From Streptomycetaceae bacterium (GTDB lineage Bacteria; Actinomycetota; Actinomycetes; Nanopelagicales; Nanopelagicaceae), in NCBI GenBank assembly GCA_027488575.1, contig JAIYBJ010000025.1:1-39321 (forward strand): a stretch of DNA of 39,321 bases, given 5' to 3'. Below, piece after piece: positions 1 to 12,420 of this stretch (its first letter is position 1; every line of letters starts with the position of its first letter). The notes below the pieces were generated by a model that ran no database searches, was not told the DNA's origin, and was given only the letters and a program-made list of their open reading frames with translations. The position numbers were made by a program, and so were the translations under genes.

Positions 1-1245
1 GCGCAATATATCCAAACAATCACGAGTGACTTCTCCGATTATTCGTATGCCAAGACCTGGGCCTGGAAATGGTTGGCGCCAAATAATTTGCTCAGGCAAA
101 CCTAGTTCTGCTCCAACATTTCGTACTTCATCCTTAAAGAGTTCGCGCAATGGTTCAACCAAATTGAACTTAAGATCATCAGGTAATCCACCGACATTGT
201 GATGTGACTTAATGTTTGCAGTTCCTGTTCCGCCACCTGATTCAACGACATCTGGATATAAAGTTCCCTGAACCAGAAACTCAACTTCTCCACCGCTTGC
301 AATATCGCGGGCAGCTTTTTCAAAAGATCGAATGAATTCGCGCCCAATTATTTTTCGCTTAGTTTCTGGATCAGTAACACCTTTAAGTGCATCCAAGAAT
401 TGATCAACTGCATCAATAACAACAAGGTTCACACCCGTGGAAGCGACGAAATCTCTCTGCACTTGCTCCGATTCGCCGCTTCGCAATAATCCGTGATCAA
501 CAAAGACGCAGGTAAGTTGTTTTCCAACAGCTTTTTGAATAATCGCTGCAGCAACAGCTGAATCGACTCCACCAGATAATCCACAGATCACGCGCTTGTC
601 GCCAATTTGCTTACGAGCTTTTTCTATTTCAATGTGTGCAATATTTGCAGGCGTCCATGTTGTATTGCACTTTGCAATATTGACTAACCAATTCTTGAGA
701 ATTGCTTGCCCATGTTCGGAGTGCATAACTTCTGGATGAAATTGAACGCCAGAGAGTTGTGCATTTGCACTTTCAAATGCAGCGATGGCTGTGTCGGAAG
801 TACTAGCTGTAACACTAAAACCACATGGCGCTTCGGTAACAGCATCGCCGTGAGACATCCAAACTCTTTGTTCTGCAGGCAATGAGTTAAATACTTTCGA
901 ACCAGGCTTCACCTTTAATTGCGTGCGACCGAATTCGGATTTACCAGTTTGGCTAACTACGCCACCGAGTGCTGCTGCCATAGCTTGAAAGCCGTAACAG
1001 ATTCCAAAAATAGGAATGTTTAGAGCAAATATTGCGGGATCAACTGATGGTGCATTCTCTGAGTAAACACTTGATGGACCACCAGAGAGGATTATTGCTT
1101 CTGGGTTTTTCGCACTTACTTGTGCTGCAGTAATTGTTGATGCAACGATTTCTGAGTAAATATTTGCTTCACGGACCCGTCGTGCAATCAATTGTGCATA
1201 TTGCGCACCAAAGTCAACGACTAGAACTCCGTGAGGATTAGGCAC
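1..1245 (-). CDS. guaA: GMP synthase (glutamine-hydrolysing), partial, 3' end outside window
   Basis: Converts XMP to GMP using glutamine and ATP, the last step of guanylate synthesis in the cytoplasm. I translated this frame by hand: 415 codons are visible and the C-terminal part (about 110 residues in a usual enzyme of about 525) lies outside the window. The N-terminal class I glutamine amidotransferase domain has the nucleophile Cys83 in GICYG and the His170/Glu172 pair in FHPE. The ATP-pyrophosphatase domain has its P-loop SGGVDSA at about residues 224-230, and the start of the dimerisation domain carries [11 protein letters not shown]. The start is GTG at 1245: no other ATG, GTG or TTG lies in frame before the upstream stop. 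It overlaps the guaB3 stop by 8 bases through the shared string GTGCCTAA, which suggests translational coupling. It is the last visible gene of the guaB-guaB3-guaA run. Confidence 0.95.
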
Positions 1246-2350
1246 GATGAATAAGAACTTCTACTCGCTGGAATGACTTCACATCTGAATACCCAGTTGT
1301 TGCCATCGCACGACGTAGTGCACCAAATAAATTCATTGAACCATCTGCTGCATGTGATGGTCCAAGCAAAATCTCTTGCAGTGTTCCTGATGTTCCAACT
1401 GCAACTCTTTCTCCACGTGGAAGTTCTGGGTGATGAGCTTCTGATCCCCAGTGCCAACCAAGCCCAGGTGCCTCAGTTGCTTTTGCAAGTGGTGAACCCA
1501 TCATCACTGCGTCAGCGCCACATGCAATTGCTTTAGCAATGTCGCCACTTCGTCCAACTGAACCATCTGCAATGACGTGAACATAGCGTCCACCAGATTC
1601 GTCCAAATATTCGCGGCGAGCAGATGCAACTTCAGCAACAGCTGATGCCATAGGAACTTCAATTCCTAAAACTTTTCTCGTGGTGTGTGCAGAGCCACCA
1701 CCGAAACCAACGAGCACACCAGCAGCGCCTGCACGCATTAAGTGCAGCGCACCAGTTGCAGTTGCTACTCCACCAACGATTACTGGAACATCCAATTCGT
1801 AGATGAATTTCTTTAGGTTTAGCGCTTCTGTTTCTGCTGCCACGTGTTCGGCGCTAACAGTTGTTCCGCGGATTACGAAAATATCAACGCCTGCATCGAT
1901 TACTGCTTTATGTAGTTCTGCTGTGCGCGCTGGTGAAAGGGATGCAGCAACTGTTACACCTGCATCTCTGATCGTTTTAATGCGCTCTTTAATCAGCTCT
2001 GGCTTAATTGGAGCAGAATAAATCTCTTGCATGCGCTTTGTTGCGTGCTTATCTGGCATGGATGCGATTTCACCTAGTGGAATGCGAGGATCTTCATAAC
2101 GAGTCCACAAACCTTCGAGGTTTAGAACACCCAGACCTCCAAGATTGCCAATTGCAATCGCTGTTTCTGGTGAGACAACAGAATCCATGGGCGCTGCCAT
2201 CATCGGTAAATCAAATTTGTATGCATCGATTTGCCATGAAGTAGAAACTTCAAGCGGATCGCGTGTGCGACGACTTGGAACGATTGCAATATCGTCAAAA
2301 GAATATGCCTGGCGGGCTCTCTTTCCGGGAGCTAATTCAATATCGCTCAT
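1238..2350 (-). CDS. guaB3: GuaB3, IMP dehydrogenase-family paralogue
   Basis: A 370-residue (beta/alpha)8 barrel protein of the IMP dehydrogenase/GMP reductase family, without CBS domains, of the usual length for actinobacterial GuaB3. The N-terminal half holds the MAAPMDSV segment (about 51-58), matching the SSAMDTV segment of true IMPDH. The loop that carries the catalytic Cys in IMPDH (GPGSICTTR) reads [11 protein letters not shown] here (about 215-225), so the nucleophile is absent. The C-terminal region has [12 protein letters not shown] and an acidic/His patch ([13 protein letters not shown]). To my knowledge the role of actinobacterial GuaB3 is unsettled, so I do not assign a reaction. 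It lies 18 bases after guaB and overlaps guaA, so it is very likely co-transcribed with both. Confidence 0.93.
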
Positions 2351-2368: not shown

Positions 2369-3505
<1,137 letters not shown>

Positions 3506-3537: not shown

Positions 3538-4413
3538 TTAGGCTCCGATTGCCCGCGTAATTTCCTCACATGCGAAGTTCAAATCAGGGGTTTGAGTCAT
3601 ATTCGCACAATCACTTTCGCGCCAACCTGGCCCGCCCAAAAGTATTCGTGGAGCAGGTCGCACTGCTGGCAGATTTCTAAAGTATGTCGGATCAGCATTT
3701 TCAACTAACTGTGCCCATAAGAAAATCGCAGGTGGTGCGAACTTTTCAACCATCGCTTCAAGTGCTGCAAATGGTGTGCGAGCTCCGAGGAAATGGCACT
3801 CAATATCTCGCTCAGCAAGGGCTGCAGTCAATGCATGGATTGCAAGTGAGTGCATCTCTTCGCCAACGGATGCAACCAACACAGGGCGTGGGTTGATTGG
3901 TTTTTGAATCATCGATGATCGTTCACGCAAAACTCTCTTAAGGGTTTCTGAAAAGAAGTGCTCGATTTCAATACCTTCGCCAGTTTGCGCCCATGATTCT
4001 CCGAGCATCACAAGTACTGGAACTATGACCTCTTGCCATGAGCAAATAACGCCGTATTTTTCGATGTCATTACGTAATGTGCTTTCAATAAAGTTTTTAT
4101 CCAGTGCATTAGCCGCGCTATGCAGAGCGTCAATAACATCTGGTCGATCAGAAAAAGCGCCAACAATTTTTTCCATTTTAATTGCACTCTTTGTACTGAG
4201 TGCTTTTTCCGCCGCTTCCGCAGGTGACATCCCAGCGATGATTAGCCGACGCATCGTTGTTAGCTTTGCCAGATCAGCGGCGCAATATCGGCGGTGCGAA
4301 CCGCTCTCGTGATCGCTCGGTCCGATTCCGTAACGACGAGCCCAGGTGCGAAGGGTTGCTGGGGCTACGCCAAGGCGTCTAGCCACTGCTGCAACGGTTA
4401 AGAGCTCTTCCAC
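3538..4413 (-). CDS. MerR-family regulator with B12-binding domain, CarH/LitR type
   Basis: 291 residues in three parts. Residues 1-72 form a MerR-type winged helix-turn-helix (LTVAAVARRLGVAPATLRTW, then the RRYGI and HRRY wing). Residues about 85-165 form a helical domain holding Trp141, nine residues, then Glu151-His152. This W-x9-EH spacing is the signature with which CarH-type proteins cover the upper face of adenosylcobalamin. Residues about 175-290 look like a Rossmann-like B12-binding domain with an ExH motif (Glu186-Met-His188, the candidate lower axial ligand) and a late GGPG. CarH/LitR proteins repress genes in the dark and release DNA when light breaks the Co-C bond. Light sensing here is inferred from motifs only. 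The start is GTG 4413 with no clear ribosome binding site. It is co-directional with guaB (53 bases) and divergent from whiB. Confidence 0.8.
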   Translation of the reverse strand: MEELLTVAAVARRLGVAPATLRTWARRYGIGPSDHESGSHRRYCAADLAKLTTMRRLIIAGMSPAEAAEKALSTKSAIKMEKIVGAFSDRPDVIDALHSAANALDKNFIESTLRNDIEKYGVICSWQEVIVPVLVMLGESWAQTGEGIEIEHFFSETLKRVLRERSSMIQKPINPRPVLVASVGEEMHSLAIHALTAALAERDIECHFLGARTPFAALEAMVEKFAPPAIFLWAQLVENADPTYFRNLPAVRPAPRILLGGPGWRESDCANMTQTPDLNFACEEITRAIGA

Positions 4414-4474
4414 GGGCTAAGGGTGGCGCAATGCGACGCATATCACCACTTGGAATGCCCTTTTTTGAGAGAAA

Positions 4475-4504
4475 TTGAGGGCAGGTACTTGAACAACCTA
4501 TGAA
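4475..4504 (+). promoter_or_regulatory. candidate whiB promoter
   Basis: TTGAGG (4475-4480) and TATGAA (4499-4504) are separated by 18 bases on the plus strand, a reasonable -35/-10 pair. Transcription would begin near 4510-4513, just upstream of the ATG at 4524. The -10 element covers the other possible whiB ATG at 4500, so that upstream start would not be in the transcript. Found by eye, without statistical test. Confidence 0.4.
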
Positions 4505-4523
4505 ACGGTTGTATCTTTCACCC

Positions 4524-4826
4524 ATGGCTGAAATTTCACGTTTACCCCAACCGATTGCAGATCATTGGGAGTGGCAGTACGAAGGTTCTTGCCGCACCAT
4601 GCCTAGCGAAATGTTCTTCCATCCAGATGGAGAACGCGGTCCGCGTAGACGCAATCGTGAGAACGCAGCAAAAGCTGTCTGCGCTAGCTGCCCTGTAATC
4701 AAACAGTGCCGTGATCACGCGTTGGCAGTTCAAGAGCCATACGGAATTTGGGGCGGTCTCTCTGAAGATGATCGCTTGGCCATTATTGGCAATGAAAAAC
4801 CATCAGAGGTTTATGAAGCTTCATAA
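4524..4826 (+). CDS. whiB: WhiB-family Fe-S transcription factor, WhiD/WhiB3 group
   Basis: A small actinobacterium-specific regulator that binds a [4Fe-4S] cluster and acts with the principal sigma factor in redox and developmental control. The 100-residue product has the four cluster cysteines: one in GSCR, then CASC and KQC in the C-x2-C-x5-C spacing. The GIWGG turn and a short C-terminal tail follow. The opening MAEISRLP and the FFHPDGERG block match, from memory, the N-termini of Streptomyces WhiD and Mycobacterium WhiB3. That favours ATG 4524 over ATG 4500, which would add eight residues and falls in the predicted -10 box. It is the only plus-strand gene in the window and converges on groEL, as whiB3 sits beside groEL1 in mycobacteria. 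Confidence 0.93.
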   Translation: MAEISRLPQPIADHWEWQYEGSCRTMPSEMFFHPDGERGPRRRNRENAAKAVCASCPVIKQCRDHALAVQEPYGIWGGLSEDDRLAIIGNEKPSEVYEAS

Positions 4827-4836
4827 CGAATTAATT

Positions 4837-4878
4837 AAAAAAACCCCTTCGCATTAAGCGAAGGGGTTTTTTGTTTTT
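4837..4878. terminator. bidirectional Rho-independent terminator between whiB and groEL
   Basis: A perfect 9-bp stem (4844-4852 with 4858-4866, arms CCCCTTCGC/GCGAAGGGG) has a 5-base loop ATTAA. Seven A residues (4837-4843) lie on the left and six T residues (4867-4872) on the right. It therefore gives a U-tract in both directions and serves whiB (plus) and groEL (minus), whose ends are 10 and 2 bases away. Confidence 0.93.
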
Positions 4879-4880
4879 AA

Positions 4881-6515
<1,635 letters not shown>

Positions 6516-6809
6516 TTACTTCTCGATAACAGCGAGAATGTCACGTGCAGATAGAACTAAATACTCTTCATTGTTGTACTTAACTTCTGTTCCGCCGTAC
6601 TTGCTATAAAGGACAACGTCGCCAACTTTGACATCCATAGGAACGCGAACACCATCATCAAAGCGACCTGGTCCAACAGCTACAACTGTGCCTTCTTGTG
6701 GCTTCTCTTTTGCTGTATCTGGGATAACAAGACCTGATGCAGTCGTTGTCTCGGCTTCATTAGCTTTAACGACAATACGATCTTCAAGCGGCTTAATGGC
6801 TACAGCCAT
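6516..6809 (-). CDS. groES: 10 kDa co-chaperonin GroES
   Basis: Heptameric lid of the GroEL chamber. The 97 residues are of standard length and begin with [16 protein letters not shown]. The mobile loop region [19 protein letters not shown] (about 19-37) that contacts GroEL is intact, and the roof and C-terminal strands ([18 protein letters not shown]) follow. A strong ribosome binding site AGAGGAG lies a few bases before ATG 6809. The stop abuts the groEL start with no spacer. The operator 6856-6882 lies about 47 bases upstream of the start codon. Confidence 0.97.
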
Positions 6810-11116: not shown

Positions 11117-12420
11117 GAGTTTGTTGGTATCCCATTCTTAGGAATTGAAATGCGCTTGTAAGTTGAAGGTGTGATCGGACCATTTGTTGAGTCTGTTGTA
11201 ACAACAGACAAAGTTCCGCCGAATGGCTTCAACTCACCCTTTGCATTGAGTTGTCCCATCCAGTAACCGTTATAACCAATATGGCTTGTAGGTGAGTAAT
11301 TAAGTGGAACAAGAGCTGCGCTAGCAAACTTTGCTCCCTTATTTTCAATCGCCTTGATCAAACCAGTGCGAGTTAAATTCTTACCAGCTGCACGAAGTGC
11401 CTGCACTGTAAGCATCGCTGAGTTCATACCTTGTAGAACAGTGTTGTCGAATGAGACACCAGGGTTGTACTTGGCATTGATTTTGCTAAATTCTTTGACG
11501 TATTCGTCATTTGTGTCTTTAGCGTCTGGGAAGAAGCTTGCAGCGACAATGCCATCAATTGTTGTTGACTTAACACCGAGTGCAAGAAGAGTGTTGGAGT
11601 CTCCACCAACAGAACCAGCAATCCAAGTAAATTTACTTACAAGGTTGAGTGATTCAGCAGCCTTAAGAATAAGCGCTGTGACATCTGTTGTTCCAAAGAG
11701 GATTACAACAGGCTTGCCAGGGACAGCACTTAATCCAGTTACAAGTGCTTTTGCACGAGCATCTGTCATTGAGCTTTGTGGGTACAAAGTCTTCGATGCC
11801 AGAGTAAGTGAACCTGCAGCAAAGCCATTTACACCGTCAACACCAAATTCATCATCTTGGGCAACGAGTGCAACTGCTTGGCCAGGGAACTTATCCTTGA
11901 CGAATTTAGAAATAATTTTTGCTTCCATCGCATAGCTTGGAAGAACTGTGAATGTTGTTGGGTACTTAGTGCGATTACCAAATCCACTAAAACCTGTATT
12001 TACAAAGAGATCAGGAACATTCTTTTTCGCAAGTGAAGCAGCTGTATACGCCTTTGAGTGCGTTGCTGTACCGAGAGCTGCAACTAGAGCAAATACGCCA
12101 TCCTTTAGAACAAGGTTAGTTGTCTGTGTAGCTGCCAATGTAGGTAGGTACTTATCGTCGCGAACAATCAGTTTGATTTTACGGCCGTACACTCCACCAT
12201 TTGCATTAACGTGGTCGAAGTAAGCCTTCATCGCACCTGGAACTTTGCCGTATGAAAGAGCAGCAGTACCTGTAAGCGGTGTTGAAATTCCTAGCTTAAT
12301 TTCTGAAGATGTCAGACCTGGTTCGGCAGCTTGCGCAGGAAGAGCGGTGATAACCATTGTTCCGAGTGCGACTACCGCTGAAACGATGGAGAAACGTTTC
12401 ATGCGAGTATTTCTGATCAT
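11113..12420 (-). CDS. ABC transporter substrate-binding protein, LivJ/LivK-like
   Basis: 435-residue extracellular binding protein of the branched-chain amino acid (type I periplasmic-binding) family. A signal peptide ends in AQA at about 29-31. The mature start has the family pattern EIKLGISTPLTG, then FDHVNANGGVYGRKIKLIVRDD, and the two lobes follow. The ligand cannot be told: amino acids, amides, urea or aromatic compounds are all used by this family. Unusually for a binding protein of a single-membrane bacterium I see no lipobox and no cysteine at all, so membrane anchoring is unclear. AAGGA precedes ATG 12420 at good spacing. It follows livM by 38 bases and overlaps the hydrolase gene by 4. 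Confidence 0.88.
   Translation of the reverse strand: MIRNTRMKRFSIVSAVVALGTMVITALPAQAAEPGLTSSEIKLGISTPLTGTAALSYGKVPGAMKAYFDHVNANGGVYGRKIKLIVRDDKYLPTLAATQTTNLVLKDGVFALVAALGTATHSKAYTAASLAKKNVPDLFVNTGFSGFGNRTKYPTTFTVLPSYAMEAKIISKFVKDKFPGQAVALVAQDDEFGVDGVNGFAAGSLTLASKTLYPQSSMTDARAKALVTGLSAVPGKPVVILFGTTDVTALILKAAESLNLVSKFTWIAGSVGGDSNTLLALGVKSTTIDGIVAASFFPDAKDTNDEYVKEFSKINAKYNPGVSFDNTVLQGMNSAMLTVQALRAAGKNLTRTGLIKAIENKGAKFASAALVPLNYSPTSHIGYNGYWMGQLNAKGELKPFGGTLSVVTTDSTNGPITPSTYKRISIPKNGIPTNS

Follow-up and report, generated by a model that had tools for sequence, protein, structure and literature searches.

A CarH-like MerR-B12 protein as a candidate local regulator of its divergent WhiD-type whiB neighbour in Candidatus Planktophila and other Actinomycetes

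What does a CarH-like MerR protein control when it stands directly upstream of guaB and guaB3, on their strand, and faces a whiB gene across a divergent promoter region, and does its C-terminal domain sense B12? The gene arrangement had been described in a first-pass annotation of the 39,321-nucleotide stretch analysed here (the window), and it is borne out. The annotation had also called the protein a candidate CarH/LitR-type photoreceptor and, from the positions of guaB and whiB, had suggested possible light or B12 control of growth functions. The genome to which the window belongs (1.16 Mb in 46 contigs, 86% complete) groups with Candidatus Planktophila. WhiD of Streptomyces and WhiB3 of Mycobacterium are central Fe-S regulators, and the inputs that set the expression of WhiD-type genes are of interest. 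The features of the locus are as follows.

1238 to 2350, minus strand: guaB3 (IMP dehydrogenase-related), by profile match
2369 to 3484, minus strand: guaB, 371 aa, by profile matches
3538 to 4413, minus strand: MerR-B12 (CarH-like) regulator, 291 aa, GTG start, by ORF call with profile and structure matches; HTH at residues 6-69, four-helix bundle at about 91-166, Rossmann-type B12 domain at about 178-288
3715 to 3717, minus strand: Trp233 codon (computed), at the position of the SxT/V serine in the B12 motif (PMC9304148)
3850 to 3852, minus strand: His188 codon, equivalent of CarH H177, the lower axial ligand (coordinates, like those of the next two, derived from the 4413 start codon)
3958 to 3963, minus strand: Glu151-His152 codons, equivalents of CarH E141-H142
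3991 to 3993, minus strand: Trp141 codon, equivalent of CarH W131
4486 to 4517, plus strand: candidate operator and predicted whiB promoter, TTGAAC at 4489-4494, 17 bp, TATCTT at 4512-4517, with the conserved spacer block AACCTATGAAACGGTTG
4524 to 4826, plus strand: WhiD-type WhiB Fe-S regulator, the divergent partner, ATG at 4524
4881 to 6515, minus strand: groEL, which flanks the conserved locus in synteny
6516 to 6809, minus strand: groES, which likewise flanks the conserved locus in synteny

The regulator and its corrinoid-type domain

The open reading frame encodes a MerR protein as first annotated, with a winged-helix domain that matches MerR_1 (Pfam PF13411, 4.4e-13). Matches of the C-terminal half to B12-binding (PF02310, 9.9e-6) and B12-binding_2 (PF02607, 1.5e-4) both fall under the curated cut-offs, and the top NCBIfam model, the CarH equivalog NF052513, reaches 96.7 bits where its cut-off is 400. 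The closest solved structures by sequence are those of T. thermophilus CarH/LitR (E 5e-18; profile E 1.4e-33), and the alignment pairs W141 with W131, E151-H152 with E141-H142, and H188 with H177. Structure prediction, which had been proposed as a check and was run on the protein alone, returned the CarH cobalamin-domain fold: in an AlphaFold2 model with 31 orthologues as input (pLDDT 88.4, pTM 0.74), residues 91-285 superimpose on 5c8a with Z 19.6 and an rmsd of 2.4 Å over 189 aligned residues. Further fold matches of this domain are photocobilins (8j2x, Z 20.5), the light-responsive CtMerR of Chloracidobacterium (8jbs, Z 19.1), the AppA SCHIC domain (Z 17.7) and methyltransferase corrinoid proteins. 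The protein thus has the architecture of the MerR-B12 superfamily, a MerR HTH followed by a four-helix bundle and a Rossmann B12 domain, and its description as a CarH-like MerR-B12 protein is supported. In a domain tree with long branches, the subfamily stands apart from CarH, CtMerR and CarH-like paralogues (support 96/93). Because CarH-defining features that were tested did not hold, it is not classed as CarH, and it is apparently an uncharacterised sister of CarH/LitR within the MerR-B12 regulators.

Which parts of the cobalamin pocket are kept was tallied in a set of 142 homologues with identities of 36% or more. The Wx9EH capping motif, a mark of CarH (PMC9304148), is present as W141, E151 and H152, and these residues and the axial histidine are almost invariant (W141 140/142, E151 142/142, H152 141/142, H188 142/142), as are G138, G210, P214 and G261 (each 142/142), while Trp141 is missing from some distant relatives. 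The residue numbers given by the first-pass annotation are exact, and since the four residues are near-invariant, the match with the CarH motifs is, as judged from the alignment, far beyond chance. The positions of His188 and Trp141 in the corrin pocket are likewise inferred from the alignment, because the AlphaFold2 model holds the protein alone, without cofactor.

Other parts of the pocket, which the annotation had passed over, have changed. Of the full B12 motif, D/ExHx2G/P-x41-SxT/V-x22-27-GG (PMC9304148), the subfamily member in the window retains E186xH188, the x41 spacing and GG, with Ala191 and Trp233xGln235 instead of G/P and SxT/V. The serine is replaced by Trp233 in 139/142 homologues, the equivalent of CarH G180 (residue 191) is Ala or Pro in 140/142, and W264, additional with respect to CarH, is invariant (142/142). 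Ala191 was dropped as evidence against adenosylcobalamin (AdoCbl), as AdoCbl-binding CtMerR carries the same Ala at the ExHxxG glycine in the alignment, leaving Trp233, Gln235 at the T/V position and W264 as the notable changes. Together, the Ser-to-Trp233, V-to-Gln235 and Gly-to-Ala/Pro191 substitutions and W264 suggest a remodelled nucleotide-tail pocket, and the ligand may therefore not be AdoCbl.

A domain that has taken another ligand, or that works ligand-free like CarA while still regulating whiB, is the alternative that fares best, although we consider it rather unlikely. The pocket changes, the near-total loss of the GxxH glycine and the likeness to the AppA SCHIC domain are in its favor, but a ligand-free domain would have no need of W141, E151, H152, H188, G138, G210 and P214, all of which are strongly constrained, and the Ala at the glycine position is shared with an AdoCbl binder. 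CarA of Myxococcus, a B12-independent paralogue, has the same MerR and B12-domain architecture and the EH pair but lacks the Trp of Wx9EH (PMC9304148), whereas the present subfamily retains this Trp and alters SxT/V. AdoCbl binding is plausible, and the cells are able to make AdoCbl. A corrinoid, probably AdoCbl, is most likely bound by the C-terminal domain, with His188 predicted to lie below the cobalt and Trp141, Glu151 and His152 to cap the adenosyl group.

The supply of this cofactor is consistent with such a role. A PduO-type adenosyltransferase is present in 14/14 good genomes of the genus (E 1.8e-63 in the window's own genome), the AdoCbl-dependent ribonucleotide reductase NrdJ in 13/14, with none found in the incomplete window genome, and acI strains have been reported as cobalamin auxotrophs with ECF import under riboswitches (PMC5301498). 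AdoCbl is therefore available to these cells; its use by the regulator does not follow. Across the class sample, the adenosyltransferase is found in 119/122 regulator-positive and 110/125 regulator-negative genomes (p 0.006), an association that argues against a non-AdoCbl domain and is confounded by one enzyme-free family that dominates it. The idea that the regulator is the only AdoCbl client of the cell was rejected on the distribution of NrdJ. The window's genome also encodes a methyltransferase-type corrinoid protein beside a MetF-like gene (L001, G000:C18 near 11957-12286), whose place is taken in some other Planktophila genomes by a B12 protein of MetH size. In genome G001, nrdJ is in pieces, one with an internal TGA (L217-L219, G001:C12), possibly an assembly error.

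The whiB pairing and its promoter block

The regulator is found in 61/72 other genomes of the genus, always as one ortholog in synteny, and the genomes without it are mostly incomplete; the closest named records share 93-95% of the protein. Relatives occur in about half of the class genomes sampled (122/247 at E ≤1e-30, a count whose weak end takes in some paralogues). The divergent whiB-regulator pair is kept, together with groES-groEL, across many families of Actinomycetes. In sister genera, a close whiB is present in 5/5 regulator-positive and 5/20 regulator-negative genomes (p 0.005), and in genus g44 the regulator and this whiB have both been lost. The gap between whiB and groEL contains a strong symmetric terminator hairpin of 15 pairs (4838-4872) that likely terminates in both directions.

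An operator search of the regulator-whiB spacer and of whole genomes, as the annotation had advised, yielded one conserved candidate block, located at the whiB promoter. It spans 4489-4513 of the window with the consensus TTGAACAAYYTATGnnnCGGTTGTA and the hexamer pattern TTGAAC-17-TAnnnT, and was not flagged by a simple promoter consensus scan. Within the candidate operator lie the dyad ACAACC-N8-GGTTGT and, at the -35 element, a single TnnACA repeat of the CarH type. Its spacer bases are conserved like the hexamers, far past what a promoter needs. The block occurs in 5/5 loci of sister genera in which the regulator is kept; in genomes that lack the regulator, 6/6 whiB-type loci score at shuffle level and have no block, two of them still beside groEL. 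A position matrix built from family sequences scores 15.7 to 36.8 at 10/18 regulator loci of other families, as opposed to -22 to -34 (shuffle level) where there is no regulator; a strong block is missing from the other 8/18 spacers. In 16 Planktophila genomes, a sequence model of the block recovers one strong site per genome, at whiB (E 6e-10 to 7e-8), and none in three g44 genomes, which have neither the regulator nor such a whiB. The motif-defined target would thus be a single site, the predicted whiB promoter. A global regulon was sought genome-wide with this model and not found; the first look scored 150 candidates per genome, and weak sites may escape it.

These observations are best explained by a local role of the MerR-B12 protein, dedicated to regulating the divergent whiB, in which a corrinoid-type domain sets its DNA binding; to this reading we assign a probability of about 60%. 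The MerR domain would bind the block at 4486-4517, which spans the -35 element, the spacer and the -10 element of the predicted promoter, and the regulator would therefore be able to occlude or remodel it. Its binding would be tuned by ligand state, that is, by the level of AdoCbl and possibly by photolysis. The sign of regulation could be either, as overlap with both promoter elements fits CarH-like repressors as well as MerR activators.

As the block overlaps a promoter, another factor, WhiB included, could be what binds there. In that case the block would be simply a well-kept whiB promoter, or a site for WhiB or some further regulator, while the MerR-B12 protein would act elsewhere. This alternative is unlikely. 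It can draw on the -35 and -10 elements inside the block and on a separate dyad, AAGTGG-N10-CCACTT, in the regulator's own promoter region, but it does not account for spacer bases that are conserved equally with the hexamers, nor for the absence of the block at whiB promoters in genomes that keep whiB without the regulator, so that the block tracks the regulator and not whiB. In addition, the CarH repeat TnnACA (PMC9304148) finds a match within the block.

Several details of the spacer are recorded here. Strict CarH-type repeats in 11-bp tandem were sought in the window and not found, as it holds one TnnACA; second copies lie 26-27 bp away in 36/102 family spacers, and 11-bp pairs occur in two other-family loci only. 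A weaker second copy of the block is seen about 26 bp upstream in some genomes. The predicted start point is near the whiB ATG, and whiB may therefore be leaderless. A second conserved element, AAGTGGTGA...CCACTTCACGCCAC, lies upstream of the regulator (4423-4452, minus strand), and is a dyad in many relatives and degenerate in the window.

guaB adjacency and the question of light

In the loci of other families that were read, the order is groES-groEL, whiB facing the regulator, a bldM-like response regulator, in L036 a sigma factor, and guaB-guaB3; in other families, 1.2-4 kb lie between the regulator and guaB. This is the order of the actinobacterial WhiD/WhiB3 - BldM - SigD/ShbA - guaB locus, from which Planktophila differs by having no bldM-like or sigma gene between the regulator and guaB. 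Direct adjacency to guaB is restricted to Candidatus Planktophila and its relatives (132 loci, gaps of 10-100 nt). Because other families have genes in between, the adjacency is derived, a product of gene loss, and the whiB pairing is the old feature. In the window, the regulator-guaB gap revealed neither a sigma-70-type promoter nor a terminator, and guaB is possibly co-transcribed with the regulator in the Planktophila lineage only. Control of growth functions is thus weakly founded, given an adjacency that stems from gene loss and the location of the only strong site at the whiB promoter. In the Planktophila group (2369-3484 in the window; 132 loci), GuaB itself has only about 371 aa, versus about 500-550 aa in other families, and the profile match skips the middle. 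The short form appears to be without the CBS (Bateman) module, and its nucleotide regulation would therefore be lacking too.

The residues associated with the light switch have also diverged. The light signature defined with SignatureFinder comprises GxxW, EH, GxxH and GxxxP (PMC11796333), of which three of four are kept; the GxxH position reads E185xxH188, with Gly in only 3/142 homologues. CarH His132, which provides the bis-His ligation of the light state and is frequent but not universal, corresponds to A142, and the homologues mostly have E/A/Q/K/V/R/Y there, with no His among the residues tallied over the 142. The R176-D201 salt bridge of the CarH head-to-tail dimer (PMC8221060) is not retained: M187 stands for R176 (mostly L, M or Q in the homologues), and R212 for D201 (Arg in 133/142). 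The His132 and salt-bridge positions, too, had been missed by the annotation.

A true AdoCbl photoreceptor of the CarH type, under which guaB-guaB3 and growth functions would be repressed in the dark and freed in light, has on its side the complete Wx9EH, the axial His, the CarH fold, the unbroken gap to guaB and cells able to make AdoCbl, but is very improbable given the missing His (TtCarH H132A stays mostly tetrameric after illumination; PMC10442372), the lost salt bridge, the distance of guaB in other families, the site at whiB, and the neighbours examined, among which no carotenoid or photolyase gene was seen. The point about H132 is softened by CtMerR and photocobilins, which respond to light without such a His (PMC11796333). 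Of the original photoreceptor claim, the CarH-like B12-domain regulator stands and the photoreceptor is weakened by the systematic divergence of light-switch and tail-pocket residues. Light control by the whiB-facing regulator is possible but less certain than AdoCbl binding, and the switch would differ from that of TtCarH.

Relation to known regulators and significance

Compared with CarH / class I LitR of T. thermophilus (5c8d, 3whp), the regulator shares the domain order and GxxW, Wx9EH, ExH, GxxxP and GG; it differs by its low identity (26-27% in structure alignments), by belonging to a separate clade, by the residue changes above, and by a locus of whiB, groEL and guaB instead of carotenoid or photolyase genes. 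CtMerR likewise has a non-His residue at the H132 position (PMC11796333) but retains the SxT/V serine and falls outside the clade. Class V LitR of Micrococcales is said to lack a B12-binding domain (PMC9758184); these proteins are actinobacterial MerR/LitR relatives, the present subfamily scores under the Pfam B12 cut-offs, and, compared by description only, the two might be the same group. No published account of this MerR-WhiB pair was found in the open literature.

A CarH-like partner that faces whiB across many families of Actinomycetes offers a concrete upstream input that can be put to the test at a defined candidate site of 32 bp, and its B12 domain provides natural variation with which to probe the roles of the SxT/V serine and CarH His132. 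For abundant freshwater actinobacteria, a regulator-whiB circuit takes the place of the guaB-growth hypothesis. A wider proposal, which can be entertained tentatively, is that these proteins form a branch of B12 sensors, spread through the actinobacterial class and remodelled in the nucleotide-tail pocket, that would couple AdoCbl or light directly to the Fe-S regulator WhiD/WhiB; if true, a second axis, from B12 or light to redox and developmental control, would exist beside carotenoid regulation.

One Planktophila genome (G053, L063:6159-7037) has a second, canonical CarH-like gene with an FHEIG motif, unlinked to whiB, near which no obvious photolyase or carotenoid gene was seen on a quick reading of L063. 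Finally, Planktophila-type loci occur in public metagenome bins whose records are named Bifidobacterium breve or Streptomyces griseus (L105, L114, L119, L131, L133, L149, L153, L165), titles that look wrong.
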